64,000 nt of DNA from Streptococcus uberis. GTDB taxonomy: Bacteria > Bacillota > Bacilli > Lactobacillales > Streptococcaceae. Where the stretch lies: assembly GCF_000785785.1 (NCBI RefSeq), contig NZ_JRQN01000003.1:62001-126000 (forward strand). Reading direction: 5' to 3'. Position numbers and translations under genes: made by a program. Every line of letters begins with the position of its first letter. Positions within the stretch are counted from its first letter, which is position 1. Below the pieces are notes generated by a model, which saw only the letters and a list, made by a program, of their open reading frames with translations, had not been told where the DNA came from and made no database searches. Of this stretch, positions 5,160 through 64,000 are shown one piece after another.

Positions 5160-8100
5160 TTACGACAAATAACTTAATTCTTCAGATTCCTTCAGTTTAA
5201 CAGAAACAACTTTCGAGACCCCTGATTCTTGCATAGTAATACCGTAAATGCTATCTGCAGCAGCCATTGTACCCTTACGGTGTGTAACAACGATAAATTG
5301 GCTATCCTTGTCAAAACGATTGAGGTAGTCCCCAAAACGTTTAACGTTAGCTTCATCTAAAGCGGCCTCAACCTCATCTAAGATAACAAAAGGAATTGTT
5401 TTAACACGGATAATGGCAAATAGCAAAGCTAAAGCAGATAAAGCTTTCTCCCCACCAGACATAAGATTGAGTGACTGAATCTTCTTCCCAGGAGGTTGCA
5501 CGGAAATTTCCACTCCTGCTGTGAGTAAGTCACTATCTGTAAGAACTAAATCAGCTGAGCCACCACCAAACATTTGGGTAAAAGTTTCTTTAAAGCTCTC
5601 ACGAATTGCTTCAAAAGTTACCTTAAAGCGGGCTTTGACTTCACTATCCATATTCCCAATAGTTCCAAGTAGCATGTCCTTTGCACGGTTCAAATCAGCT
5701 TTTTGTCCATTTAAAAATTCCAGACGGTCAGCTACTTCATCATACTGCTCAATTGCATCTAAGTTAATTGGACCTAACTGTTTGATTTTTCTTTGTAATT
5801 GTTTCAGAGTCTCTTTGGCAGCCATACTATCTTCAATTGGTCGACAGGTTGCTTTTGCATCCTCTAATGTCATTTGGAATTCTTCGACCAAGGATTTAGC
5901 GTAGCCACGTAATCTATCTGATAGCTGGTCAAGTTCAGACTCCAATTTAGTTTGTCTTCTGATGAAGGTTTCATTTTGCGCATGGAGATTGTTTAAAGAC
6001 ACTTCCAATTCTTCAAGCAATGCTGCTAAATCATCATTTTCAAAACGCAATTGAACTAATCGCTCTTCAACAGATTGCTTACTTTCTGCCAATTGAAGCA
6101 TTTTCTTCTCCAAACTTGGTAGTTGATCAATATGTTCTTGCGAGATTTGATGTGTCAGCAATTCTTCTTGTTGGCTAATTTGTTCTTGTGTGGTTTGAAT
6201 CTGAACAAGCAATGTTTGAAGATTAGTCCGCTCAAAGCGTTGCTCATTTAACAAGTCACGTTCTTTAAGGCGTTTTTGTGACAACTCCTCTACAACATGA
6301 TTTTTCGTATCCGTAATAGCATCTTTATTACTCTTAATATCATCAATATCATGAGTCAACTTGTCTTTTTGTTCAGCTAAACCTTCTAATTGTTCGTTTA
6401 GTCGTAATTTATCCTCCTGATAGTTAGCTAAGAGTGATGTCTGATCTTTTTGATTGAGAACAGCCAACAAAGCTCTGGCATCATCAAATTGATTTTTTAC
6501 TTGTTGATAAAAAAGACTAGCTTTTTGCTCGGCTAAGCGAGCCTGCTCACCAGATTGTTTGATCTCTTCTAACTCTTTTTGCTTATTAAGCAAGTGTTGA
6601 TTTAAGTCTGCAACCAGTTTTTCTTGACCTTTTAAGTCTTGGTTGATTTGCAATAGCTCTGCTGAGACCTGATCTAATTCTGGCTGAATAAAAGTGGAAT
6701 TATTCTGTTTGTTAGCTCCTCCTGAGAAGGATCCCCCTGGACGAAGTTCTGTACCGTCTAGGGTAACAATTCTCACCTTATAATTCAATTTCTTGGCTGC
6801 GCTATTAGCATGATCAATGGTATCAAAAATTGCCGTCACGTTAAGCAAGTTTTTGATGATAGCGTCAACATGACCTTCATAAGACACTAAAGAATGCGCT
6901 GTTCCCAAGTAACCTGGCTTGCTTCTAATTGCTTTTGGAAATTATCTACTAAATAACGAGCCTTAATCGTTGTTAAGGGCAAGAAAGTCGCACGCCCTAG
7001 ACGATTTTTCTTCAAAAAGGCAATAGCATTTTTGGCAGCTGCTTCATTTTCGACGATAATATGTTGACTACTTGCGCCAAGTGCAACTTCCATGGCTGTT
7101 TGGATATCTTTATCAAAATTCAGGTGCTCACTGACAGCTCCAAGAATGCCACCAATGGTATCGGCATTTTGCAGTACTGATCTAACACCCGCAAAAAATT
7201 GACTATGACTTTTTTGAATAGACTCCAAACTAGCTTGACGTGCTTCCTTGGCTTTTTTCTTATCAAGGATATCAAAGAGTTTACTTTGCTCCTCTTGATA
7301 ATGGTCTTGCTGTCTAGATACTAGTTTCTCTATTTCTTGATAATCTGTTAATAACTGAGCGACTTGCTCTTGACTTTCTTGATAAGCTGTTAGAGCTGCT
7401 TCATTTTCTTTTGTTAAGCGGTCAACTTTTTGGCTCGTTTCTTGGTAATCCTTATCTTGATTAGCCTTTGCTTGTTGTTCCTTTTCAATAGTTGCATTCA
7501 AGAGACTCAGTTTATTTGATAAATCAGCTTCTTGTTGCATCAGTCCAACATAGTCTTCTCGTAGCGTCTCAATTAGTTGGTCTGGATCCGTTGAAAACCG
7601 ATTTAACTCTTCTGTTAGCTGTAAGACTTCTTGACTGATTTTTGTCAAATCATCACTTACCGTTTCTAGAACCTGTGTCTTTTCTGACTCTTGTTCTTGT
7701 AATACTAATAGCTCAGATTGCAACTGCTTAATGCGGATGCTAGTTTCTTCTTTTTTCTCACTCTTTTGGCTTTTTTCCAATTTGATGAGTTCAATTTGTC
7801 TTTCTAAATCCGAAAGCGCTTTAGTCAATTCTAAGAGTTGAGATTGTTTATCATCTGTTTCTTTAATAACCAATTGACGTTTAGTCTTTAAGTCCTGATT
7901 TTCTTTTTCAAGCTTCTCACGCTTGTGATGATAAGCGACCATGTCTTCTTTTAAAGTTGAAAGCTCTTCTTCTTTAGAGTTTAATTGGTCTTTATCTGCA
8001 TCAATATCACTAACTAAAACATCCAATTGCAACTGACTTCTATCTTCTTCTAAAAGAAGAAAGGCTTTAGCTGTTTTGGCTTGCTTTTCAAGGGGAGCAA

Positions 8101-8704
8101 TTTGTGTTTCTAATTCATAGACAATATCGTCAAGCCGATCCAAATTGTCTTGCGTTTGATTGAGTTTGCTTTCTGTTTCCTTTTTACGTGTTTTATATTT
8201 CAAAACACCTGCAGCTTCTTCAAAGATAGCGCGTCGTTCTTCTGCTTTACTATTAAAGATTTCTTCAACACGCCCTTGCGAGATAATTGAGAAGGAGTCT
8301 TTACCTAAGCCTGTGTCCATAAATAAATCATGGATATCACGGAGTCTAACTTTTTTTCTATCGATCAGATAGTCGCTATCCCCATTTCGATAGATGTGAC
8401 GCTCCACACGAATTTCTTTGTTAGCATCTTTGATAAAATTATCTGAATTATCTAAAATAACAGCAACTTCAGCAAAGTTTAAGGCATTCCGACTCTCGGT
8501 TCCAGCAAAAATAATATCGGGCATCTTGCCTCCGCGAAGGCTTTTTGCACTCGACTCCCCTAAGGCCCATCTCAAGCTTTCAGTGACATTACTTTTACCT
8601 GAACCATTTGGACCAACTACTGCTGTCACACCTTTATCAAATTCAATTTTTGTTTTATCTGCAAAGGATTTAAACCCTTGCATTTCAATTCTTTTTAAAA
8701 ACAT
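5160..8704 (-). pseudogene. smc: Chromosome segregation ATPase SMC, one frameshift
   Basis: SMC condenses and segregates the chromosome with ScpA and ScpB. The reconstructed protein is about 1180 residues, the normal length: N-terminal P-loop GPNGSGKSN, coiled coil, hinge, second coiled coil, then signature LMSGGEKALSALALL and Walker B VILDEVEAALDEAN. The frame breaks inside the hinge: the N-terminal half runs to about 6887 and the C-terminal half opens around 6908. Restoring one base in the C run near 6913 (CC to CCC on the plus strand) joins them as ...ASQGYLGTAHSLVSYE..., which fits the family. The gene abuts rnc with no gap. Since smc is important for growth, a sequence error is a strong alternative to a real mutation. 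Confidence 0.9.
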
Positions 8705-9396
8705 CTATTCCTCTTTTAACTGCTTAAGAGCATTCTTAGCAGCAGCTTGTTCGGCTAATTTTTTTGATTTACCTTTTCCGTGACTTAGCAGTTGATCATT
8801 TGATAAAACAGCTACCTCAAAAATCTTGGCGTGAGCAGGGCCATCTTCATTGACAACTTTGTAATCAATTAGAATATCCCCTTGTGCTTGTAGCAGCTCT
8901 TGCAAACACGTTTTATAGTCTTTTACTTGTTCAAAATTACCCTTTTCAACTTGGGGAATCATTACCTGATATAAAAATTGACGAACTTTTTCGACACCTT
9001 TATCCAATAAAAGAGCACCTAGGAAGCTTCAAATAAATCCCCTAGTATCGTATCACGATCTCTACCACCTGATTTTTCTTCACCTTTGCCCAGTTTGATA
9101 TAATTGTCAAAACTACAAAAACGTGAAAAGCCTGCTAAACTTTCTTCACGTACAATCATTGACCGTTGTTTTGACATATCACCCTCAGCTTTATTTGGAT
9201 ACTTTTCAAATAGATATTCTGAGATGATCAATTGAAGAACAGCGTCTCCTAAAAATTCCAAACGTTCATTATGTGAAATGTTTAGGAGGCGATGCTCATT
9301 AGCGTAGGAAGTATGTGTAAAGGCAGTTTCTAGCAAGTTTATATCAGCAAAAGTAATATCAAATGACTCTTTCAGTAAAGCTTCTAACTTTTTCAT
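8705..9396 (-). pseudogene. rnc: Ribonuclease III, one frameshift
   Basis: RNase III cuts double-stranded RNA, including rRNA precursors. The N-terminal catalytic half carries the signature [12 protein letters not shown] and the second acidic site near GDLFEA; the C-terminal half is the dsRNA-binding domain ending in [14 protein letters not shown]. The frame stops after GDLFEAS at 9019. Restoring one base in the AA run at 9024-9025 gives [19 protein letters not shown] and joins the halves into about 230 residues, the usual size. Start ATG at 9396 has an AAGGAG site. Directly upstream of smc in the vic operon order. Confidence 0.88.
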
Positions 9397-54246: not shown

Positions 54247-55747
54247 TTAGCGTTTACGTAATGAGCCCATTAAGCCACGGACTAATTCGCGACCAATTGT
54301 TCTTACAGCCGTACTAATAAAAGCATCCGTTGCCTTCTCAACAACCGATTTACGAGGTCTACCCACCGAACGATTAGCTTGTCTTTGAAGACGTTCAGCT
54401 TCTTTGGCAACTTCCTTGTCTGCTTTTTCTTTTGCTTTTGCTTCTTGCTCAGCTCTTGCTGCAGCTTCCTCACCTACTACTTTTTTAGCTAATAATTCAT
54501 AAGCTGATTCACGATCAATAGCTTGCGCATATTTGTTGGCAAATGGCGATGATTGAACGACAGTTTGAATTTCAGCGGGAGCCATTTGGTCAAAAGAAGA
54601 CTTAGGAGGCATAACATAGGCACGCTCAACGATTGATGCTGGCCTTTTTCATTAAGGACGGAAATAAGAGCTTCGCCGACTTCAAGCTCCGTAATAGCTG
54701 TCGCAACGTCAAGTTCTGGGTTCTGACGGAAAGTATCCGCTGCTACGCGAACTGCCTTTTGTTCACTGGGGGTATAAGCACGAAGGGCATGTTGAACACG
54801 ATTCCCTAGCTGAGCCAATATAGATTCTGGTAAGTCAAGAGGATTTTGTGTAATGAAGAAAATCCCCACGCCTTTTGAACGAATAAGACGAACTATTTGC
54901 TCAACTTTATCTAAGAAGACTTTTGGTGCATCATTAAACAATAAGTGTGCTTCATCAAAGAAGAAAACCATTTTCGGTTTTTCAAGATCGCCAACTTCGG
55001 GCAAGGACTCATACAATTCGGACAACATCCATAAAAGGAAAGTTGTGTACAGGGTTGGTGAATTAAAGAGTTTAGTAGCATTAAGGACATTAATTGCTCC
55101 CAGGCCTGTTGCCGTATCCAATTGCATAAAATCAGCAATATCAAGCGCTGGTTCGCCAAAAAAGAGTTCTGCACCTTCTTGCTCTAACGTTAATAGATCT
55201 CTTTGAATAGCCCCAATAGACTGTTTAGCAATGTTGCCATATTGGCTGAATAATCAGCTGCATGGTCAGCAACCTCTTTTAAGACAGCTTGTAAGTCTTT
55301 AAGATCGATTAACAACCAGCCATTTTCATCTGCTATTTTAAAAACAATATTCAAAACACCAGTCTGAGTATCGTTTAAATCAAGGAGACGAGCTAGCATC
55401 AAGGGCCCCATTTCAGAAATGGTTGTCCTAACAGCTTGCCCACTCTCAGCAAATACATCCCAAAGACGCACAGGAAATGATTGAGGGCTATAGTCTGTGA
55501 TACTTAATTTGTCTAATCGGTCTGACAATTTTTCAGTCACCTGGCCAGGTTTAGCCAAGTTGACAAGATCGCCTTTGATATCTGCTAAAAATACAGGAAT
55601 ACCTGATAAACTTAATTGTTCTGCTAGCACTTTTAAGGTCACTGTTTTCCCTGTACCAGTTGCTCCTGCAATCAGTCCATGTCTATTGAGCATGTTTAGT
55701 TGTAATTCAACTGGGTTCTCCCCTTTAGCAATTGTAACTGTGGCCAT
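54247..55747 (-). pseudogene. HerA-like ATPase (DUF853/YjgR family), two frameshifts
   Basis: A predicted DNA-translocase-like ATPase of the COG0433/DUF853 family; cellular role not known. Walker A GLIAGATGTGKTVTLK and Walker [15 protein letters not shown] are seen, then [19 protein letters not shown] and a long lysine/glutamate coiled tail. One base is missing near 55247 (restored: [22 protein letters not shown]) and one near 54638 (restored: [17 protein letters not shown]). About 500 residues when restored. The ATG at 55747 follows AGAGGTTC. Confidence 0.85.
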
Positions 55748-55853
55748 ATGAACCTCTTTCTCCATCTATTGATTTCACTGCTATATAAATATCTCTCATT
55801 ATCCCAATTATAACACAAAAGAGACCTGATTTGATAATCAACTCCCTTTGATT

Positions 55854-56513
55854 CTACCATTTTTTATGATCTTCTAATGGACCAAAACGCTTTTCTAAAA
55901 ATGCCAAGCAAAATTGCATCACCCAACCAACTCCAAAAGCAAAAAGCAAGGTTCCGAGGCCTAAACTCCCACCAAATAACCAACCTAATAAGCAGACCGT
56001 ACCTTCTAATAGGGTCCGAACCAATCCCACTCGCCAGCCTGTTAAGAAACAGAGTCCAACAAGCAAGCCATCACGTGGACCAGCTCCTTTATGACTTGTC
56101 AGATAAATTGCTGAAGCAATTCCCACCAAAATAACCCCAAAAATAGTTAAAAAGATTCTCATAATCATGCTTGTCGGAGGCGTCACATTTGAAACAATTA
56201 GACCAATGACAAACGCAATGATGATAACATTAAGAAGTGTTCCAAAACCTGGTTTAATTTTTAGTGGGAACCAAAGAATTAGAACAGTTAAACTTATTAA
56301 GAAAGTTACCCAACCAATATTGATACCAGAAAGATGACTTACCCCTTGTGACAAGACTGTCCAAGGTGCTGAGCCTAGATTAGCTAAGACTAAACAAGAT
56401 TCACCAACACCATATAAGACCAAACCTAAAATCAGCACAGAAACTGAAACCGGCTCTAAGCTCCAGTAACTTTTTCCCATCCAAGGCGTTCTCGGTATAA
56501 TTGATTTTGACAT
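55854..56513 (-). CDS. YczE/YitT-like integral membrane protein
   Basis: A 219-residue protein with about five helices. The glycine motif LANLGSAPWTVLSQGVS and the second repeat HKGAGPRDGLLVGL are typical of the YczE/YyaS group of membrane proteins. Function is not known; some members affect surfactin or drug response in Bacillus. Seven bases from coaE. Confidence 0.75.
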   Translation of the reverse strand: MSKSIIPRTPWMGKSYWSLEPVSVSVLILGLVLYGVGESCLVLANLGSAPWTVLSQGVSHLSGINIGWVTFLISLTVLILWFPLKIKPGFGTLLNVIIIAFVIGLIVSNVTPPTSMIMRIFLTIFGVILVGIASAIYLTSHKGAGPRDGLLVGLCFLTGWRVGLVRTLLEGTVCLLGWLFGGSLGLGTLLFAFGVGWVMQFCLAFLEKRFGPLEDHKKW

Positions 56514-56520
56514 GACTCTC

Positions 56521-57111
56521 CTAACCTAACTTGCTAACCAATTTCTTAACCTTATCAGTCAGTTCTTGCAAGTTTCCATTATTATCAATCACTAGATCAG
56601 CATATTTTAACTTATCTTTCAAAGGCATTTGTGAGTCAATACGATCACGCGCTTCTTGCTCACTATAGTGATTGCGATCCATTAGTCTTTGTTTTTGTGT
56701 TTCCAAATCAACATAAACTAACCAGATTTCACTAAACCAGTGTCTCATATCCAATTCAATAAGTAAAGGAATGTCCATAAAAAAGGGCTTCCCCTTGGCT
56801 TCAAGTTCCTCTTTTCGAAATTGCAATTCCTCTTGAATGATTTGATTCTGCAACCTAGACGAATGGTCCCTATTTTCCTGGCTAGAAAAAATCATTTTTG
56901 ACAATTTGGGCCGGTCGATTTCACCATCTTCTTGCAAAATAGATGGACCAAAAAAGTCTAGCAAGGCTTGATAAAGACGACCACCTTTTCCTTGTAACTC
57001 ATGAACTACCAGATCAGCATCAATAACCTCATAGCCAGCTTGTCTAATTTCCTTGACAACAGTGGACTTGCCTGAGGCAATCCCTCCCGTTAAACCAATA
57101 ATCTTAGTCAT
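56521..57111 (-). CDS. coaE: Dephospho-CoA kinase
   Basis: Last step of coenzyme A synthesis. The 196-residue product has the P-loop [14 protein letters not shown] and the conserved ADLVVHEL and DIPLLIE motifs. The ATG at 57111 overlaps the mutM stop (ATGA), so an upstream in-frame extension is rejected. Normal streptococcal order mutM-coaE. Confidence 0.93.
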
Positions 57112-57929
57112 AATTTTTGACACCTTGGACAAAAATGCGTCCCTCTTCCTGCAACTTTTATTTTCCGAATAGCCGTTCCACATCTTGGACACGGTTTATC
57201 CTTTTGTCCATAAACCATCAGATAATCCTGCATGGACCCGTTCATCCCTAAAGTATTCTGATACGTTCGAACAGTCGAGCCACCCTTTTCAATTCCTAAA
57301 GCTAAAACAGCTATTGTTTGATCATGAATTCTTTTTATTTCAGCTTTTTTAAGACAATCACTAGTCCTCATTGGATGCACTTTAGCAGCCCACAAGACCT
57401 CATCCACATAAATATTTCCAAGACCTGCAACCAAACTTTGATCCAAAAGCCATGGTTTAATGATTTTTTGGGAGGATAGCAGAGCTCTTTCAAAAGGCTT
57501 AAGCTTAAAATCAGCTTTAGTTGGTTCTGGGCCAACCTTTTTCTCTAAGAAGAATCGATCCAATTGACTCTTCTCTACTAAATTAAAAGTACCAAACTTC
57601 CGCACATCTTGATAGACTAAGGTAGACCCTTCAGTAAAATTAAAAAAGACGTGGAAATGTTTATTTTCAGGGATAGTATCGTTAAACAGTAAATATTTAC
57701 CTTCCATCCGAAGATGAGAAATCATAACTAGCTGACCTAAATCAAATAATAAATATTTCCCACGGCGTGCAACTGCTTGAATGATTTGTCCTTTCAAGGC
57801 AAGGCAAAATTCCTGACAGTCATATTTGACCATATTAGGTACTTTAACGGTGACTTGGTCAATCACCTTCCCAAGTACCAACTCTTCTAAACCACGACGA
57901 ACTGTTTCAACTTCAGGTAATTCCGGCAT
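57108..57929 (-). CDS. mutM: Formamidopyrimidine-DNA glycosylase (MutM/Fpg)
   Basis: Base-excision repair enzyme for oxidised purines, 273 residues. Catalytic N-terminus [14 protein letters not shown] and the C-terminal zinc finger ([11 protein letters not shown] ... FCPRCQ) are intact, as is the lysine region near residue 57 (GKYLLFDLG). Start ATG at 57929. Confidence 0.95.
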
Positions 57930-58088
57930 AATAATCCTTTCAGCATGAATTCTAAATTAAGTCTATTATACCATGAACCAGAATAGGAAGACGAATAATA
58001 AAAAACCAGTCAAAAGGGATATACTCCCTTTAATAGTAGACAGTGAAAAAAACAAAAATTCACTAGAAATTATAAGGGGAGTTTTCAT

Positions 58089-58441
58089 ATGTCCAAAAGA
58101 AGTCCAAAATCAGTAGAAGAGAAATTAGAAGTGGTTCAATTATTGCTCACCCACGAGAAGTCCATTTCTCAACTCAGTAAGCAGTGTGGTGTAAGTGAGT
58201 CGGTAATCAAGTCTTGGAAAGCAAAATATGAGAAAGCTGGTAAGCATGGTCTTAAGAAAAGTCTAACTTGGAAGAAATATTCCAAAGAAGTTAAGAAATA
58301 AGCTGTTTTAGACTATCTAGATAGAAAAGGTTCCTTACTGATATTTGTCTAAAGTATGATATTTCGTCTCATTTTGTTCTTAATAAATGGATAAAACGGT
58401 ATACTAGTGGTGAATACTTAAAAGCCACTAGTAAAGGATGA
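58089..58441 (+). pseudogene. IS3-family transposase orfA remnant
   Basis: Helix-turn-helix transposase start (MSKRSPKSVEEKLEVVQLLL ... SQLSKQCGVSESVIKSWKAKY). It hits a stop TAA after EVKK where CAA is expected, then continues AVLDYLDRKGSLL with a further lost base near 58340 (LDICLKYDISSHFVLNKW). It is cut off at about 58441 by the next IS. IS150-like group. Confidence 0.7.
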
Positions 58442-59620
58442 AAAGGCAACAGTTTTCTGTACACATTTTATAAAGTGCTTTTTAGTTAGGTAATTAATCG
58501 CATCGCCATTGGAGTCTGGTAATTGAGATTGCCAGGGATGCGATGATAGTTCCACCAATGGACATAATCTCCTATTTTGACGCTTAGTTCTTCAAGAGAG
58601 TAGAAAACTTCTTGATGACTAAACTCAATCTTGAATAATCGATAGGTGCTCTCTGATACCGCATTATCATAAGGACATCCTGCATGACTTAGTGATCGTG
58701 TAACGCCAAAAGCATCAAGTAAGTCATCAATCAACGTATTATCGAATTTCTTTCCCCTATCTGAATGGAATGGTTTGAATAGCTTGTTTCACTAAGCTAG
58801 CTGTCTTGTACCAACCAATGAGAGTCCGATGATTTCACGGTTATAGAGATCGATGATGAAGCATATATAAGCCCAGCGCTTTCCTACACGAACATCGGTT
58901 AAATCTGTCACGAGAGTCTCTAACAGCTGGTGCTCATTAAATTGTCTCGCTAAATGGTTAGGAACCCCTACCTCGTTCTTTCCTTTTGAATGAGGTTTAA
59001 ATGATGCTTCTTGGTATAGTGAAACAAGATTCAGTTTTTTCATAATACGTCTAATCCGACGACGAGATACCTTGACTCCCTCTGTCTCAAGAACTTGTTT
59101 AATTTTTCTTGCGACATATCTAGCCTTGTTATCAAAGAAAATAGCTTTAACTTTTTCAGCTGTAGCTATCTCAGAGACAGGTTCAACAGCAATATAATAG
59201 TAGCTAGAGCGGGGAATATGTAGTAGTCGGAATACTATATCTATCTTTGTTGGTAGTGATTCTTTCTCTTTTAGTGCTATAATCACTGCCGCTTGCTTTA
59301 GGATATCAACTTGCATTTCCAACTCTTTATTGCGTTTTCGAAGTGCAGTCAGTTCACGTTGCTCATCTGTTAAGTTATCAATTGTTTTAAATGATTCGGT
59401 TGTTTTTGCTTGTCTAACCTATTTATCAAAAGTAGAGGGAGTTAAATCGTATGCTTTAATAATCTCACTTCGCTTTTTTCCAACCTTATGAAGATCAACA
59501 ATCTGTTGTTTAAAGTCATCTGTAAATTGAAGGCATACTTTGCTAGTCATAATGTTTTCTTATTTTCTTTAGTTTAGAACACTTGATAAGACTGTCTAGT
59601 TTAGTGTAACCTATTCAAGG
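58438..59620 (-). mobile_element. IS3-family insertion sequence, copy A (defective)
   Basis: About 1.2 kb. Right end at 58438-58462 (TGAAAAGGCAACAGTTTTCTG), left end near 59610. The two ends share a loose inverted similarity (TATAAAGTGCTTTTTAGTT and TATCAAGTGTTCTAAACT). It carries a broken orfA-orfB transposase. It interrupts the orfA remnant of another IS. A 5'-truncated copy in the opposite direction lies at 61327. Confidence 0.7.
58486..59550 (-). pseudogene. IS3-family transposase (orfA-orfB), copy A, broken
   Basis: From ATG 59550 the frame reads MTSKVCLQFTDDFKQQIVDL, then a TAG at 59419-59421 replaces a Trp codon (TFDK-VRQAK). A long frame (58792-59322) has LVTDLTDVRVGKRWAYICFI, the first catalytic Asp; it stops at TRQLA. 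After that a lost base and a deletion of about 10 codons lead into FHSDRGKEF-like sequence (second Asp) and YDNAVSESTYRLFKIEFSHQE (catalytic Glu), ending at 58486. rve/DDE domain. Not functional. Confidence 0.75.
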
Positions 59621-59631
59621 TTCCATCTAGA

Positions 59632-59952
59632 TATAAGACTGAGTAGTTAGTTTGAAGTGACCGTTCATGAAAGACAGTGACATTCTCTTGTGTTACTTTA
59701 GTGATATTTGAAACAGTTGTCGGACTATAATGATGTCCGTACATACGTTCAATAATGTCGCTGATTTCGCGCGTTGTTACGCCAGTCTGATAGAATTTGA
59801 TAATTATCTCTTCTAGTGGTCATCACGTCTAGCATAAGATGGTAATAAAATCAGTGAAAACTCGCCATTTCGATCTCTTGGAATCATCGAGTTTACTAAA
59901 CCGTACTTTGTTTCAAACTGACGAGAATAAGTTCCATAGACTCCATATTTTA
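59632..59952 (-). pseudogene. IS256-family (Mutator) transposase fragment
   Basis: Minus-strand pieces resemble KYGVYGTYSRQFETKYGL and IPRDRNGEFSLILLPSYARR, followed by RDDH and, in another frame, ERMYGHHYSPTTVSNI. This is the N-terminal third of an IS256-type transposase. Stops and frameshifts throughout, no ends seen. Confidence 0.65.
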
Positions 59953-59960
59953 AAATGATG

Positions 59961-60157
59961 GCTAAGCATCGTTATAAGATCGAAGCAAGAATGCGGAATT
60001 AAAACAAAGACATAGTCTCGATGTCGCCAGGGTATCAGGTCTTTTAAATATGGAGTTACAAACTGCGACTACTATATTTGTAGTCAATCTGAAGCGGATC
60101 ATCACTTTAATAAACAAAAAAAGAAGGATAAGAAAAGAGGAAAAACTCAATTTTTGA
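59961..60157 (+). pseudogene. C-terminal fragment of an IS1182-like transposase
   Basis: After one lost base near 59990 the plus-strand frame reads KHRYKIEAKNAELKQRHSL and ATTIFVVNLKRIITLINK, a typical end of DDE_Tnp_1 / IS1182-like transposases. The rest is missing. It abuts the IS256 fragment head to head. Confidence 0.6.
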
Positions 60158-60171
60158 GTCTTTCCTCTTTT
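60133..60171 (+). terminator. Terminator after the IS1182-like fragment
   Basis: Arms AAAAGAGGAAA and TTTCCTCTTTT with an inner ACTCAA/TTGAGT stem, followed by T. Confidence 0.7.
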
Positions 60172-60199
60172 TATTTTGAAATTAGTAGTCTTTAAGAAA

Positions 60200-60480
60200 C
60201 TACTTTTTCAGTGGCCTCCCGAAATTAAGTACTTTTTTGATCACCGCAAGTTTTTTGTAAAACTGATTCATATCATCACTCATAAATTCTCTTCTTGTTA
60301 AATTTGTTATTGCTAATTGTCTTAACTTATCTGCTAGTTCTAAAATAATTTTTCATAAAGATTTACCTTCTGATAAGTTTTCTTTAAAATTAACAAGGAT
60401 ATACCGCTCTTGTTTTTTATTGAGGGACTTAAGTTTACATTATATGCCTCATTTATTATTTCATTGCGGTTAAAAGTCAT
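60200..60480 (-). pseudogene. Bacteriocin immunity protein-like gene, broken
   Basis: With one base added in the A run near 60436, the minus strand reads SIKKQERYILVNFKENLSEG, an in-frame TGA, then KIILELADKLRQLAITNLTR and EFMSDDMNQFYKKLAVIKKV to a stop at 60200; about 93 codons. The size, helical pattern and LADKLRQLA stretch resemble the enterocin A / PedB-type bacteriocin immunity family (PF08951). It lies just downstream of the two bacteriocin genes. Family call is by pattern only. Confidence 0.5.
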
Positions 60481-60655
60481 GGGGATTTTCCATTCCCTTT
60501 AAAATTAGCTATCTCAATGATTTTCTAAGCTTACAATGATTTTTGCTATTTACAATCATTTAAAATTAGTCATATCGATTTCACTAAAATAATCATAATA
60601 GTTTCAGGACAAATAAACCTATTAGTACTGAAATCAATAACAATAAAAGATTTGA

Positions 60656-60883
60656 CTAATGATTTCTGTCAGTTTTCTTTATTAGATTTAATAGAAATAA
60701 TTGGAACAATCCACCTAATAGTAATTTATGCGTAGTTGAATTCCAAATCGCTTTATGAAATATATAAAAATTTAGAATCATTAAGCAAATACCAAATAAT
60801 GTCATAATGAAACTTCCTATTATACATTGTCTAAAAGCATCATACTTTTGATCATTTCCCTCTTTTTGCCCCTTCATACCCAT
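60656..60883 (-). CDS. Small membrane protein next to bacteriocin, possible immunity
   Basis: A 75-residue protein from ATG 60883 (73 from 60877) with two membrane helices (CIIGSFIMTLFGICLMILNF and LLLGGLFQLFLLNLI) and a basic end (KKTDRNH). It overlaps the end of the bacteriocin gene by about 30 bases, so the two are coupled. Small two-helix proteins in this position are often immunity proteins. No family recognised. Confidence 0.6.
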   Translation of the reverse strand: MGMKGQKEGNDQKYDAFRQCIIGSFIMTLFGICLMILNFYIFHKAIWNSTTHKLLLGGLFQLFLLNLIKKTDRNH

Positions 60884-61061
60884 TATAATACCCCCAAGCA
60901 AAAAGTGATGTCCCTGCACAACCAATGGGACCAGCAGCAGCCATCCCAATTAAACATGCACCTGCTACTAATGTTGGTCCGTTCCCACCTGATATTTCAC
61001 TTAAATATAGATTATTAATCTCTTGATATTTTCCATTTTTTATAGTTTGAATATTTTGCAT
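60852..61061 (-). CDS. Double-glycine bacteriocin precursor, peptide 2
   Basis: A 69-residue precursor. The leader ends LYLSEISGG (residues 18-26), the double-glycine processing site. The 43-residue mature part is rich in Gly and Ala (GPTLVAGACLIGMAAAGPIG), has two Cys (mature 10 and 22) that could form a disulfide, a GxxxG (GYYNG), and a basic end (EGAKRGK). Class II, likely one half of a two-peptide bacteriocin with the upstream gene. ATG follows GAAAGGA. Confidence 0.82.
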   Translation of the reverse strand: MQNIQTIKNGKYQEINNLYLSEISGGNGPTLVAGACLIGMAAAGPIGCAGTSLFAWGYYNGYEGAKRGK

Positions 61062-61098
61062 GCTTTTCCTTTCAATTTTATTAAATAGGTATCTTTTA

Positions 61099-61269
61099 TT
61101 ATTTTGGATGTGTTAAATAATATACGCTTTTCCCTGCAGCTTCCCCAAACGAATAAATCCCCCAAGCAATACCAGTTATGATTCCAACAGCCTCTAATTC
61201 ACCAGTTCCACCAAAAATAGTGTTCAAATGATTTTCATTTAAAACTTCAAATTCTTTAATTCTAGTCAT
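61099..61269 (-). CDS. Double-glycine bacteriocin precursor, peptide 1
   Basis: A 56-residue precursor from ATG 61269 (after AAGGAGG). The leader ends LNENHLNTIFGG (residues 10-21). The 35-residue mature part has two linked GxxxG motifs (GIITGIAWG) and ends YYLTHPK. No Cys. With the second precursor 37 bases downstream it looks like a two-peptide class IIb bacteriocin. A frame extension to 61314 starts inside the palindrome and is not used. Confidence 0.82.
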   Translation of the reverse strand: MTRIKEFEVLNENHLNTIFGGTGELEAVGIITGIAWGIYSFGEAAGKSVYYLTHPK

Positions 61270-61289
61270 TATTAAAACCTCCTTATAAA

Positions 61290-61323
61290 ATATTTTTCTT
61301 GCATCCGGATGCAAGAAAAATAT
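61290..61323. repeat. 34-bp perfect palindrome before the bacteriocin genes
   Basis: Left half ATATTTTTCTTGCATCC, right half its exact reverse complement, with no spacer (centre CC|GG). It lies between the ribosome site of bacteriocin gene 1 and the junction with IS copy B. Confidence 0.85.
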
Positions 61324-61326
61324 ACC

Positions 61327-61840
61327 ACAATTTAATGAGCACCAGCTGTTAGAGACTCTCGTGACAGATTTAACCGATGTTCGTGTAGGAAAGCGCTGGG
61401 CTTATATATGCTTCATCATCGATCTCTATAACCGTGAAATCATCGGACTCTCATTGGTTGGTACAAGACAGCTAGCTTAGTGAAACAAGCTATTCAAACC
61501 ATTCCATTCAGATAGGGGAAAGAAATTCGATAATGCATTGATTGATGACTTACTTGATGCTTTTGGCGTTACACGATCACTAAGTCATGTAGGATGTCCT
61601 TATGATAATGCGGTATCAGAGAGCACCTATCGATCATTCAAGGTTGAGTTTAGTCATCAAGAAGTTTTCTACTCTCTTGAAGAACTAAGCGTCAAAACAA
61701 GAGATTACGTCCATTTGTGGACTATCATCGTATCCCTGGCAGTCTCAATTACCAGACTCCAATGGCAATGCGATTGATTACCTAACTAAAAAGCACTTTA
61801 TAAAATTTGTACAGAAAACTGTTGCCTTTTCATTTTATAT
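61327..61840 (+). mobile_element. IS3-family insertion sequence, copy B (5'-truncated)
   Basis: About 510 bases almost the same as the reverse complement of 58438-58948, in opposite orientation to copy A. It starts abruptly inside the transposase gene (ACAATTTAATGAGCACC) and runs to the same right end (CTGTTGCCTTTTCA). It shares the frame break after GTRQLA and the following deletion with copy A, and has an extra lost base near 61716. No function. Confidence 0.75.
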
Positions 61841-61876
61841 TTTTCCTTCCTTTATTTTTACAACTTCTACATTAAC

Positions 61877-62512
61877 TCAATACTTTTCTGATACTATCTC
61901 CCCTTCTTTTACATGAAAAATAGTGTCGCATAAATCCTCAATGTCACTTTTATAATGCGATGTTATAATCACGAGTCCTTTTTGTTTATGTTCCAATATC
62001 AATTTTTTGGTAGTATCGACACTTTTTTCATCTAAGGCATTCATTGGTTCGTCTAAGAGTAATATGTCAGGATAATCCATGAAGGCTTGAATCAATACCA
62101 TTTTTTTCTTTGTTCCCAAGGATAAATGTTTGTACAATGTATCTTTAAATTCTGCAAGCTGATACAAATTAATCCAATAATTTAAATCAATTTTCTTTTT
62201 ATGACGACAGATATTTTTTATCAGTTTTAAGTTTTCTTCTAAGGTTAGAAAAGAAATAAATTCTTGTTCTCCAAGTACTAATCCAGCATTTGAAATTGTT
62301 TCATTACCTGTTCCAATTATTTTTCCATTTTGAAAAACTTGACCTTTACTCAACCTACAAAAACCAGCTAAAGTACACAATAGCATGGTTTTCCCTGAGC
62401 CATTAATACCTACCAGACCATAAATCTGATGATTTAAAAAGGTTAAACTAATTTGGCTCAATAGTATTCTCTTACTTTTTGACAAGACTCCGTTTTTTAT
62501 TTCTAACAAGTT
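61877..62512 (-). CDS. ABC transporter ATP-binding protein
   Basis: A 211-residue ATPase: Walker A GLVGINGSGKTMLLCT, signature LSLGTKKKMVLIQAF, Walker B ILLLDEPMNAL. The TTG at 62512 fits best: it is six bases after GGAGGT and starts MLEIKNG; a GTG at 62530 is the alternative. It overlaps the preceding membrane gene by 41 bases. With two membrane proteins upstream it forms an exporter; the site next to bacteriocin genes suggests immunity or secretion, but no peptidase domain is present. Confidence 0.82.
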   Translation of the reverse strand, partial: NLLEIKNGVLSKSKRILLSQISLTFLNHQIYGLVGINGSGKTMLLCTLAGFCRLSKGQVFQNGKIIGTGNETISNAGLVLGEQEFISFLTLEENLKLIKNICRHKKKIDLNYWINLYQLAEFKDTLYKHLSLGTKKKMVLIQAFMDYPDILLLDEPMNALDEKSVDTTKKLILEHKQKGLVIITSHYKSDIEDLCDTIFHVKEGEIVSEKY

Positions 62513-63125
62513 TTGACCTCCAATCACCAATGAAACAAAGATATAAGCAACAACAAAATAAAATATAAATCATATGATTTATGAAAAAATTCCTAAACAT
62601 AATTTCAAAGCTGATAAGCATAATTGTTAATACACTATTAGAACAATAATAAGTGATAAAAAAATAACAAATTGAATCAACAAAAAACCATGCCAGTAAA
62701 AATAATAAGATGTCCATCATTCCAACTGACTGTCGATAATTGACAATCAAGAAACAAACGACAAAAAATACTTGACCTAAAAATTCTTTAGCAAACTGAC
62801 CATTAATTAATCTATACATCGAAACCTGATAAATGAATGTGTTCTTACAATGACTCTTAATCATAACCTTGATATTAGAAGACATTTCAGCCATCATTGT
62901 ATAAGTTGCTAAAAAGCTCATAAATGAAAAACCGAGAATCATGATAAGTTTCATAAAACTAAGTTGTTGTCCAGTAGTGGAAAAAAAGGGATTAATTAAC
63001 TGATTTGTAACTAGTACTTTTGGGTCCGATGTAATAGCTTCATTATAATGCGTCAATAAAAGAAAACAAATTGTCCAGGACAGTATTAGCTTAGATGAGT
63101 AGTAAATAATTTTATATAATCTCAT
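62472..63125 (-). CDS. ABC exporter membrane protein, second subunit
   Basis: A 217-residue protein with about six helices. It is not similar to a named family by eye. It starts inside the end of the first membrane gene (overlap 14 bases) and overlaps the ATPase gene. The tight overlaps show that the three proteins act together, like ABC-2 type immunity transporters with two permeases. Confidence 0.7.
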   Translation of the reverse strand: MRLYKIIYYSSKLILSWTICFLLLTHYNEAITSDPKVLVTNQLINPFFSTTGQQLSFMKLIMILGFSFMSFLATYTMMAEMSSNIKVMIKSHCKNTFIYQVSMYRLINGQFAKEFLGQVFFVVCFLIVNYRQSVGMMDILLFLLAWFFVDSICYFFITYYCSNSVLTIMLISFEIMFRNFFINHMIYILFCCCLYLCFIGDWRSKLVRNKKRSLVKK

Positions 63126-63903
63126 TTTTATTTTTCAATTGTAAAATACTAACAACAATAAAACATGGCAAATAGGACGCAATAAGCTGCCATAAAGTAA
63201 TATCCCCATACGAAGTAATCATAATATGAGAGATAGGCACTAAATAAAAGGGCAAGAAACTGTAGAGAATTGGCGCACTACCCCAAAGATACAAGATATA
63301 AACTAAAGCTGACTTTGTGAACTGATTAAAATAATCTATCAGATAAAAAAACAAAACTGTTTCCGTTAAAATAGCAAAAGTTTTAACAAAAAAATAATAA
63401 AGCAGATAATGCCAGGCACTTTTTGAAAAATAGCTAACAACTGAATTTTGATTAAAGTAGAATTTCAAACCATTATAATCAAATCTATCTACTAGAATTG
63501 CTGTAATAATGATAATTAACAATAAAGTAAAAAAAGTAACTAAATTGACGACAGTAAGTCGTAGCTTTAGCATTTTAATACATTTAAAATAGGCATCTGT
63601 CCTACCCAGATAATAACGACAATACCTATTTTTTAGATAATAATACATATATCCTAAAATCACAGTCAAAAGGGGGAGCAAAAATGCTTGAAAAAAGTTA
63701 AATTCGAAAATACTATTGTTCAATGACAGTAATCCTTTTAGATACTTCAATTTGATTAATTCCCCTCTTAAGTGATCCAAATCACTTGCATGAGAATCAA
63801 AAAACAAAACATGTAAAATAGCCTGATTATAAATCAAAATCAGAAAAATCAATGTCATTATGACATACCATTTCTTGTAGGGTATAAGTTTTATCGAAAT
63901 CAT
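63112..63903 (-). CDS. ABC exporter membrane protein, first subunit
   Basis: A 263-residue, strongly hydrophobic and aromatic protein with about six helices and a short C-terminal KNKNEII tail. Good GGAGATGG site before the ATG. First gene seen of the three-gene unit. Very AT-rich coding, lower in G+C than the vic or rnr genes, which fits acquired DNA. Family not recognised. Confidence 0.7.
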   Translation of the reverse strand: MISIKLIPYKKWYVIMTLIFLILIYNQAILHVLFFDSHASDLDHLRGELIKLKYLKGLLSLNNSIFEFNFFQAFLLPLLTVILGYMYYYLKNRYCRYYLGRTDAYFKCIKMLKLRLTVVNLVTFFTLLLIIIITAILVDRFDYNGLKFYFNQNSVVSYFSKSAWHYLLYYFFVKTFAILTETVLFFYLIDYFNQFTKSALVYILYLWGSAPILYSFLPFYLVPISHIMITSYGDITLWQLIASYLPCFIVVSILQLKNKNEII

Positions 63904-63955
63904 TCCATCTCCTTTAACAACGGGAATAACAAATAACAGTTATTTCAAAACATTT

Positions 63956-64000
63956 TTATTTTGAATCTGGTGACCAACTACCATCTATAAAGAATCCTTT
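63956..64000 (-). CDS. Possible C-terminal end of an upstream small gene
   Basis: The minus-strand frame is open from the window edge: KGFFIDGSWSPDSK then a stop. It lies 52 bases before the ABC unit. It could be the end of a peptide or other small gene in the same transcript; too short to say more. Confidence 0.3.
   Translation of the reverse strand, partial: KGFFIDGSWSPDSK

Follow-up and report, generated by a model that had tools for sequence, protein, structure and literature searches.

A most likely orphaned, probably silent and very probably genuine class IIb bacteriocin cassette among IS remnants in Streptococcus uberis

The window analysed here, a 64,000-nucleotide stretch of Streptococcus uberis contig NZ_JRQN01000003.1 (positions 62,001 to 126,000), very probably carries a genuine class IIb bacteriocin cassette, comprised of peptide 1, peptide 2 and a probable immunity protein, that has most likely been orphaned and is probably silent, and that is homologous to loci of known kind. 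The genes, their homology and synteny, the IS edges and the absence of any C39 match from the assembly are observed directly, and pore formation, immunity and silence are inferred. The features of the locus, in window coordinates, are listed below.

58438..59550, minus strand: IS element, presumably IS3-like, with HTH_21, rve, rve_2 and rve_3 domains in broken frames
59601..59744, minus strand: fragment of a Mutator-family transposase (PF00872, Pfam)
60133..60171, minus strand: terminator-like hairpin with an 18-pair stem, 3' of the cassette
60200..60480, minus strand: broken gene with a frame change and a stop, related to the EntA_Immun (PF08951) protein of relatives, its pieces matched separately
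60656..60877, minus strand: third gene, two-helix membrane protein of 73 aa with an NSTT motif, probable cognate immunity protein
60852..61061, minus strand: peptide 2 precursor, 69 aa, ATG start at 61061
61099..61269, minus strand: peptide 1 precursor, 56 aa, ATG start at 61269, AAGGAGG ribosome-binding site ahead
61290..61323, no strand: perfect 34-bp palindrome with 17-bp arms, between the IS edge and peptide 1
61327..61833, plus strand: truncated IS copy, 97% identical to 58945-58438, inverted

The cassette genes and their surroundings

The sequence-only reading had described two small genes with double-glycine leaders (NTIFGG and SEISGG), mature parts of 35 and 43 residues, GxxxG motifs and two cysteines, and all of these are present on the minus strand. 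The leader of peptide 1, MTRIKEFEVLNENHLNTIFGG, ends in NTIFGG, and its 35-residue mature part has the GxxxG motifs GIITGIAWG and GEAAG in its sequence. Peptide 2 has SEISGG at the end of its leader, followed by a 43-residue mature part with cysteines at positions 10 and 22 and a GxxxG motif in the form GYYNG. Two marks of class IIb, adjacent small genes with double-glycine leaders and a GxxxG motif in each mature peptide, are found here. The upper end of the interval first assigned to the cassette (60656-61323) coincides with the end of the palindrome and with no gene boundary.

The Bacteriocin_IIc model (PF10439, Pfam) matched peptide 1 with E = 1.6e-5 and peptide 2 with E = 0.006, both under its curated cut-off of 27.1 bits, and NCBIfam gave weak matches only for the two peptides. 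Across the whole genome (G000), PF10439 had one further match beyond both peptides (E = 0.49); in this genome-wide mode the model also produced matches, all of them under the cut-off, for 8 of 14 control genomes. There was no match for the three cassette proteins in PADLOC, for peptide 2 in the PDB or for Rfam families over 56000-64000, and a tRNA search of the whole window found none. Peptide 1 had five weak PDB matches, all to nucleolar protein 3/Npl3 (E = 0.018-0.041), which were taken as chance.

The ATG of the third gene (60877) lies inside the end of peptide 2, with a 26-base overlap, so that the two-helix protein was fairly called “coupled”. A homologue accompanies the peptide pair in all three settings in which we found it: in the window, in genomes G227 and G228, and in Cab-type loci (see below). 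The window protein scored 67 against the third gene of a Cab locus, compared to a shuffle mean of 22.6 (sd 4.3), and none of 2000 shuffles reached 67; two further small membrane proteins encoded in that Cab locus scored 25 and 23, values reached by 529 and 863 of the 2000 shuffles. The NSTT motif is invariant across a five-row alignment. Position and shape suggest that the product is probably the immunity protein.

A broken immunity-like gene had also been proposed, and its position (60200-60480) falls outside the interval first assigned to the cassette. The C-terminal piece matched the 101-aa EntA_Immun protein of the relatives with E = 8e-11 and 1e-10, and the N-terminal piece matched the same protein with E = 1e-6 and 0.002 (E values for a two-sequence search space). 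The pieces alone had no match to a Pfam immunity model. Since the separate pieces match the relatives' protein, “immunity-like” is the right description. The hairpin 3' of the cassette was the single site in a terminator scan in which 0.6 were expected in shuffles, which is weak as a count.

The placement of the cassette within IS debris held up as well, with transposase fragments on either side. The edge of the truncated IS copy, at 61327, is 58 bp upstream of the start of peptide 1. In a megablast of 58000-64000 against phages, the single record returned aligned to 59231-59618, within the left IS. The frame breaks of the assembly, including that of the immunity-like gene, may be errors, since a HerA-like ATPase gene at 54247-55765 of the window is read in three frames, compared to a single 506-aa ORF in G077 (87-89% identity). 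Elsewhere in the window, split-looking ORFs at 5160-8704 and 8705-9396 are presumably smc and rnc, respectively. The frame splits of these smc- and rnc-like ORFs and of the HerA-like ATPase reflect either sequencing errors or decay.

Relatives of the cassette in other streptococci

Of 147 genomes of the genus, 9 had a match to peptide 2 and 8 a match to peptide 1 at E ≤ 0.01, the own genome being counted in both. Among these matches, the two peptides were found side by side only in G079 and G084, in which a comA-like C39 exporter follows 1.3-1.5 kb beyond the peptides, with small ORFs between; the copy in G084 scored 1125.7 bits with the bacteriocin_ABC model TIGR01193. The weak matches of peptide 2 in G027, G044, G066, G075, G080 and G081 and of peptide 1 in G011, G068 and G072 were rejected as other double-glycine peptides, and no double-glycine ORF was seen at the peptide 1 matches in G090 and G146. 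A double-glycine peptide in G072 (L023:1498-1650) ends in YAAGQTVYNLTH, like peptide 1, to which it may be distantly related.

A scan of named genomes found eight loci of the G079/G084 type, three in S. pseudopneumoniae, three in S. mitis, one in S. oralis subsp. tigurinus and one in Streptococcus sp. All eight have comA downstream, and four of the eight have plsX-acpP on the opposite side within the fetched DNA. The interval between plsX-acpP and comAB is the site that defines the competence-associated bacteriocins (cab) in S. mitis, where a mixture of synthetic CabA and CabB inhibited S. pneumoniae and neither peptide did so alone (PMC13059744, cited here and below from part of its text). 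The same paper has 95 Cab variants, and the pair tested there, from strain G22, may belong to the present subtype (PMC13059744).

The Cab loci share with the window a homologous peptide 1, peptide 2 and NSTT protein, but differ in several respects. In G079 and G084 the order is peptide 1, NSTT protein, peptide 2, whereas in the window it is peptide 1, peptide 2, NSTT protein. In all 19 loci of the Cab-type set (L033-L051, from 12 genomes), peptide 2 has 31 residues and no cysteine, compared to 43 residues and two cysteines in the window. The window cassette lies in the era-mutM interval and not between plsX-acpP and comAB. Finally, SigX-like boxes with one mismatch to TACGAATA, which we took as the SigX box motif for the scan, are located upstream in G079 and G084 (L026/L027), whereas none was found within one mismatch over 61270-61900 of the window.

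Closer relatives emerged when a three-row alignment of the window, G079 and G084 was searched against 284 genomes of the genus. Matches with E ≤ 0.01 were found in 131 of the 284 genomes, and many of the matches listed span the leader and the first mature residues only. Among the matches listed, twelve were strong and Cab-type (E = 4e-40 to 7e-35, both alignment members included), and G227 (E = 3e-18) and G228 (E = 5e-17) came next after the own genome. These two genomes carry peptide 1, peptide 2 and the NSTT protein in the gene order of the window, with identities to the window in G227 and G228, respectively, of 52 and 50% for peptide 1, 55 and 55% for peptide 2, and 38 and 36% for the NSTT protein. 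Mature peptide 2 is 71% identical between the window and G227/G228, and both cysteines are conserved.

In G227, the locus includes a C39 exporter (PF03412, E = 1.8e-43), a LytTR regulator and a GHKL kinase, as well as a 209-aa thioredoxin-like protein and the 101-aa EntA_Immun protein (all Pfam). The G228 locus has the exporter (66% to the ComA of a Cab locus) and the thioredoxin-like protein (94%); the rest are ORFs of matching length. We take both loci to be of Blp/gallocin type and to lie beside a ksgA-like gene. Like the window, they contain peptide 1, a cysteine-bearing peptide 2 and the NSTT protein in the same order, with an EntA_Immun gene in the locus; unlike the window, they have the C39 exporter, accessory protein, regulator, kinase and thioredoxin-like gene in place. 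The assignment of the window genes to class IIb is borne out by these loci, since homologous cassettes occur in exporter-bearing bacteriocin loci and the pair recurs elsewhere jointly with its third gene. Just upstream of the homologous cassette in G228 (L072:8315-9150) there is a second double-glycine pair with cysteines, together with a 135-aa membrane protein.

The same loci bear on the idea that the peptides are pheromones or other non-bacteriocin double-glycine peptides. Peptide 1 does have a weak match to ComC (E = 0.011), but the Gly-rich hydrophobic peptides form an adjacent pair with an immunity-like gene, and their homologues sit in bacteriocin loci that have a separate small double-glycine ORF beside the kinase, for which a pheromone role is presumed. 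We consider this reading of the window peptides highly improbable.

A pattern scan for relatives of peptide 2 in named genomes matched 161 stretches, of which none was confirmed, and tblastn with peptide 2 against plasmids gave no match at E ≤ 0.1. A motif search of a paper library found neither the two peptide sequences of the window in print nor a name or published activity for the pair of G227/G228 type.

Cysteines, exporter and promoter

Two further two-peptide systems were compared by description. Gallocin A of S. gallolyticus resembles the loci of the closest relatives in being a cysteine-containing two-peptide bacteriocin with a thioredoxin-like gene, but has two cysteines in each peptide, whereas in the window the cysteines are in peptide 2 alone, so that the pattern of the gallocin A-like subgroup is not found here (PMC10100652, cited from part of its text). 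As described in the same portion of that paper, both gallocin A peptides have a disulfide bond, the bacteriocin is inactive once treated with reducing agents, and killing by gallocin A is impaired when the thioredoxin-like BlpT is missing (PMC10100652). Gallocin D/infantaricin A is likewise a double-glycine two-peptide system from a streptococcal bacteriocin locus, but its mature peptides have 30 and 29 residues, compared to 35 and 43 in the window (PMC7417737).

The placement of the 12 extra residues in peptide 2 relative to the Cab type is ambiguous: the gap takes in Cys10 in the MAFFT alignment and Cys22 in the BLAST alignment. An AlphaFold2 model of the window's peptide 2, made from the single sequence, has helices at residues 2-16 and 19-41 with one cysteine each (mean pLDDT 78.4, pTM 0.41), and it is plausible that the modelled peptide forms a helical hairpin closed by a disulfide. 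A thioredoxin-like gene lies beside the cysteine form of peptide 2 in both exporter-bearing loci (G227 and G228), and the G227 thioredoxin-like protein had no match in the DNA fetched for the 19 Cab-type loci, which in several cases extends over only 2-3 kb.

In an intact setting, a C39 exporter would cut the leaders at the double glycine, and both mature peptides would jointly insert into and permeabilise the membrane of a closely related cell, while the NSTT two-helix protein would shield the producer. Peptide 2 would probably be a helix-turn-helix with two cysteines able to pair. In the window, an IS fragment cuts off the promoter side of the cassette, which stands apart from the exporter, regulator and thioredoxin partner. 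The peptides are probably unsecreted here, and at most the immunity protein may be useful.

The own assembly, G000, is 2.15 Mb in 96 contigs, with 95.02% completeness and 3.81% contamination. The lack of a C39 exporter in the window, which had been noted from the letters alone, extends further, since PF03412 had no match in the entire assembly, window included. The model was present in 100 of the 147 genomes of the genus, G000 being among the 147. The best match of TIGR01193 in G000 reached 290 bits, compared to a cut-off of 523.85, and all matches listed start at profile position 135 or later, beyond the peptidase part. The class IIb exporter was thus not found in G000, a defect that we assign to the locus and not to the peptide family. 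The suggestion that a transporter of Blp/Com type elsewhere in the genome would mature the peptides was not borne out by the assembly, and since this is 95% complete and in 96 contigs, the exporter could be missing from it. In the nearest species, G077, a 690-aa ORF at another locus is a C39 protein (83.6 bits). The best match in G000 to the thioredoxin-like partner was weak (20% identity, E = 0.003).

Promoter-like sites in 60000-61900 numbered 12, compared to 10.0 expected in shuffles, and the minus strand had none between 61270 and 61720. A sigma-70-like site is found at 61748-61721 within the IS fragment, 452 bases upstream. The junction between the IS and the cassette reads TGGTATATT, which we take to resemble an extended -10 motif. 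In G227, a direct repeat, ACCGTTTGCGA and ACCGTTTACGA separated by 10 bases, precedes peptide 1 by about 90-120 bases; neither the corresponding place in G228 nor the window has this pattern.

The palindrome in this region was the only one in the window with arms of at least 11, and the longest arm in 30 simulated 64-kb sequences with the same dinucleotide make-up was 10. With up to 3 mismatches allowed, G000 contains its 20-base core a single time; with up to 2 allowed, the core was found among the 284 genomes only in G000 and once in G071. An operator, an IS-related scar and a hairpin are candidates for what it represents. A terminator was considered and rejected, as the U run falls on the 5' arm and the A run on the 3' arm, and the palindrome is absent from the terminator scan.

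These data also bear on whether the cassette might be a working bacteriocin, with its exporter encoded on a plasmid or in sequence absent from the assembly, and its transcription driven by a hybrid promoter where the IS ends. Intact ORFs, the ribosome-binding site, the TGGTATATT junction, the sigma-70-like site, the incomplete assembly and the C39 protein of G077 would be consistent with this. The missing C39 peptidase, the low TIGR01193 score, the shuffle-level count of promoter-like sites, their absence from 61270-61720 of the minus strand, the lack of the G227 repeat and the weak thioredoxin match argue against it, and we regard a functional bacteriocin here as quite unlikely. The cassette seems to have been severed from its exporter and its switch. 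Tentatively, and with low confidence, the disulfide could be a removable module within one family, the window then holding such a cassette after loss of the exporter and the thioredoxin, possibly kept for its immunity and re-promoted at the IS/palindrome edge.

The era-mutM interval and possible retention of immunity

The nearest genome by MutM is G077, with 90% identity, compared to 75% for the next (283 of 284 genomes searched were matched). In G077, the order is era, nudix, a secreted 129-aa protein, two membrane proteins, an ABC ATPase, a lone EntA_Immun gene (L089:10080-10367, E = 2.9e-9), a 47-aa ORF, mutM and coaE. The EntA_Immun gene occupies the same chromosomal site as the cassette, which in the window lies, flanked by IS, between the ABC ATPase and mutM; the peptides and the NSTT protein had no match at the era-mutM locus of G077. 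The distance between era and mutM is about 1.2 kb in G214 and about 8.7 kb in G043. The interval is thus variable, and the cassette has either arrived in it or survived there. Both peptides and the third gene have kept open reading frames, which could point to a recent arrival or to use.

The interval also encodes a secreted 133-aa protein, two membrane proteins and the ABC ATPase (window 61877-63903 and L031:7457-7858), with 61-88% identity in G077; these secreted and membrane proteins matched no Pfam family over the cut-off. About 9-14 kb to the right of the window (L031:14984-19071), genes for a ThiF-like protein, an M16 peptidase-like protein and an ABC transporter adjoin each other, near an HTH-like ORF identified by eye (L031:14157-14780). 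This group looks like a peptide-modification cluster; the ThiF-like protein has a partial match to the PADLOC E1-E2 models.

The lone immunity gene of G077 is one point in favour of a “cheater” cassette, in which the protein encoded at 60877-60656 is kept for protection against producers of the same family. The ORF of this protein is intact, and orphan immunity genes have been described in S. mitis, where cibC occurs without cibAB in 13.0% of strains (PMC13059744, in the part cited). On the other hand, the second immunity-like gene of the cassette is broken, and a nearby promoter was not recognised. Retention for immunity alone is possible, if somewhat doubtful, and an orphaned, probably silent cassette is the reading that we prefer.

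The cassette points to a cysteine-bearing branch of a two-peptide family that is otherwise described from the Cab loci of S. mitis (PMC13059744, in the part cited), and it supplies two peptide sequences as candidates for antibacterial testing. Stranded in the era-mutM interval, it illustrates how production may be lost with immunity possibly retained.
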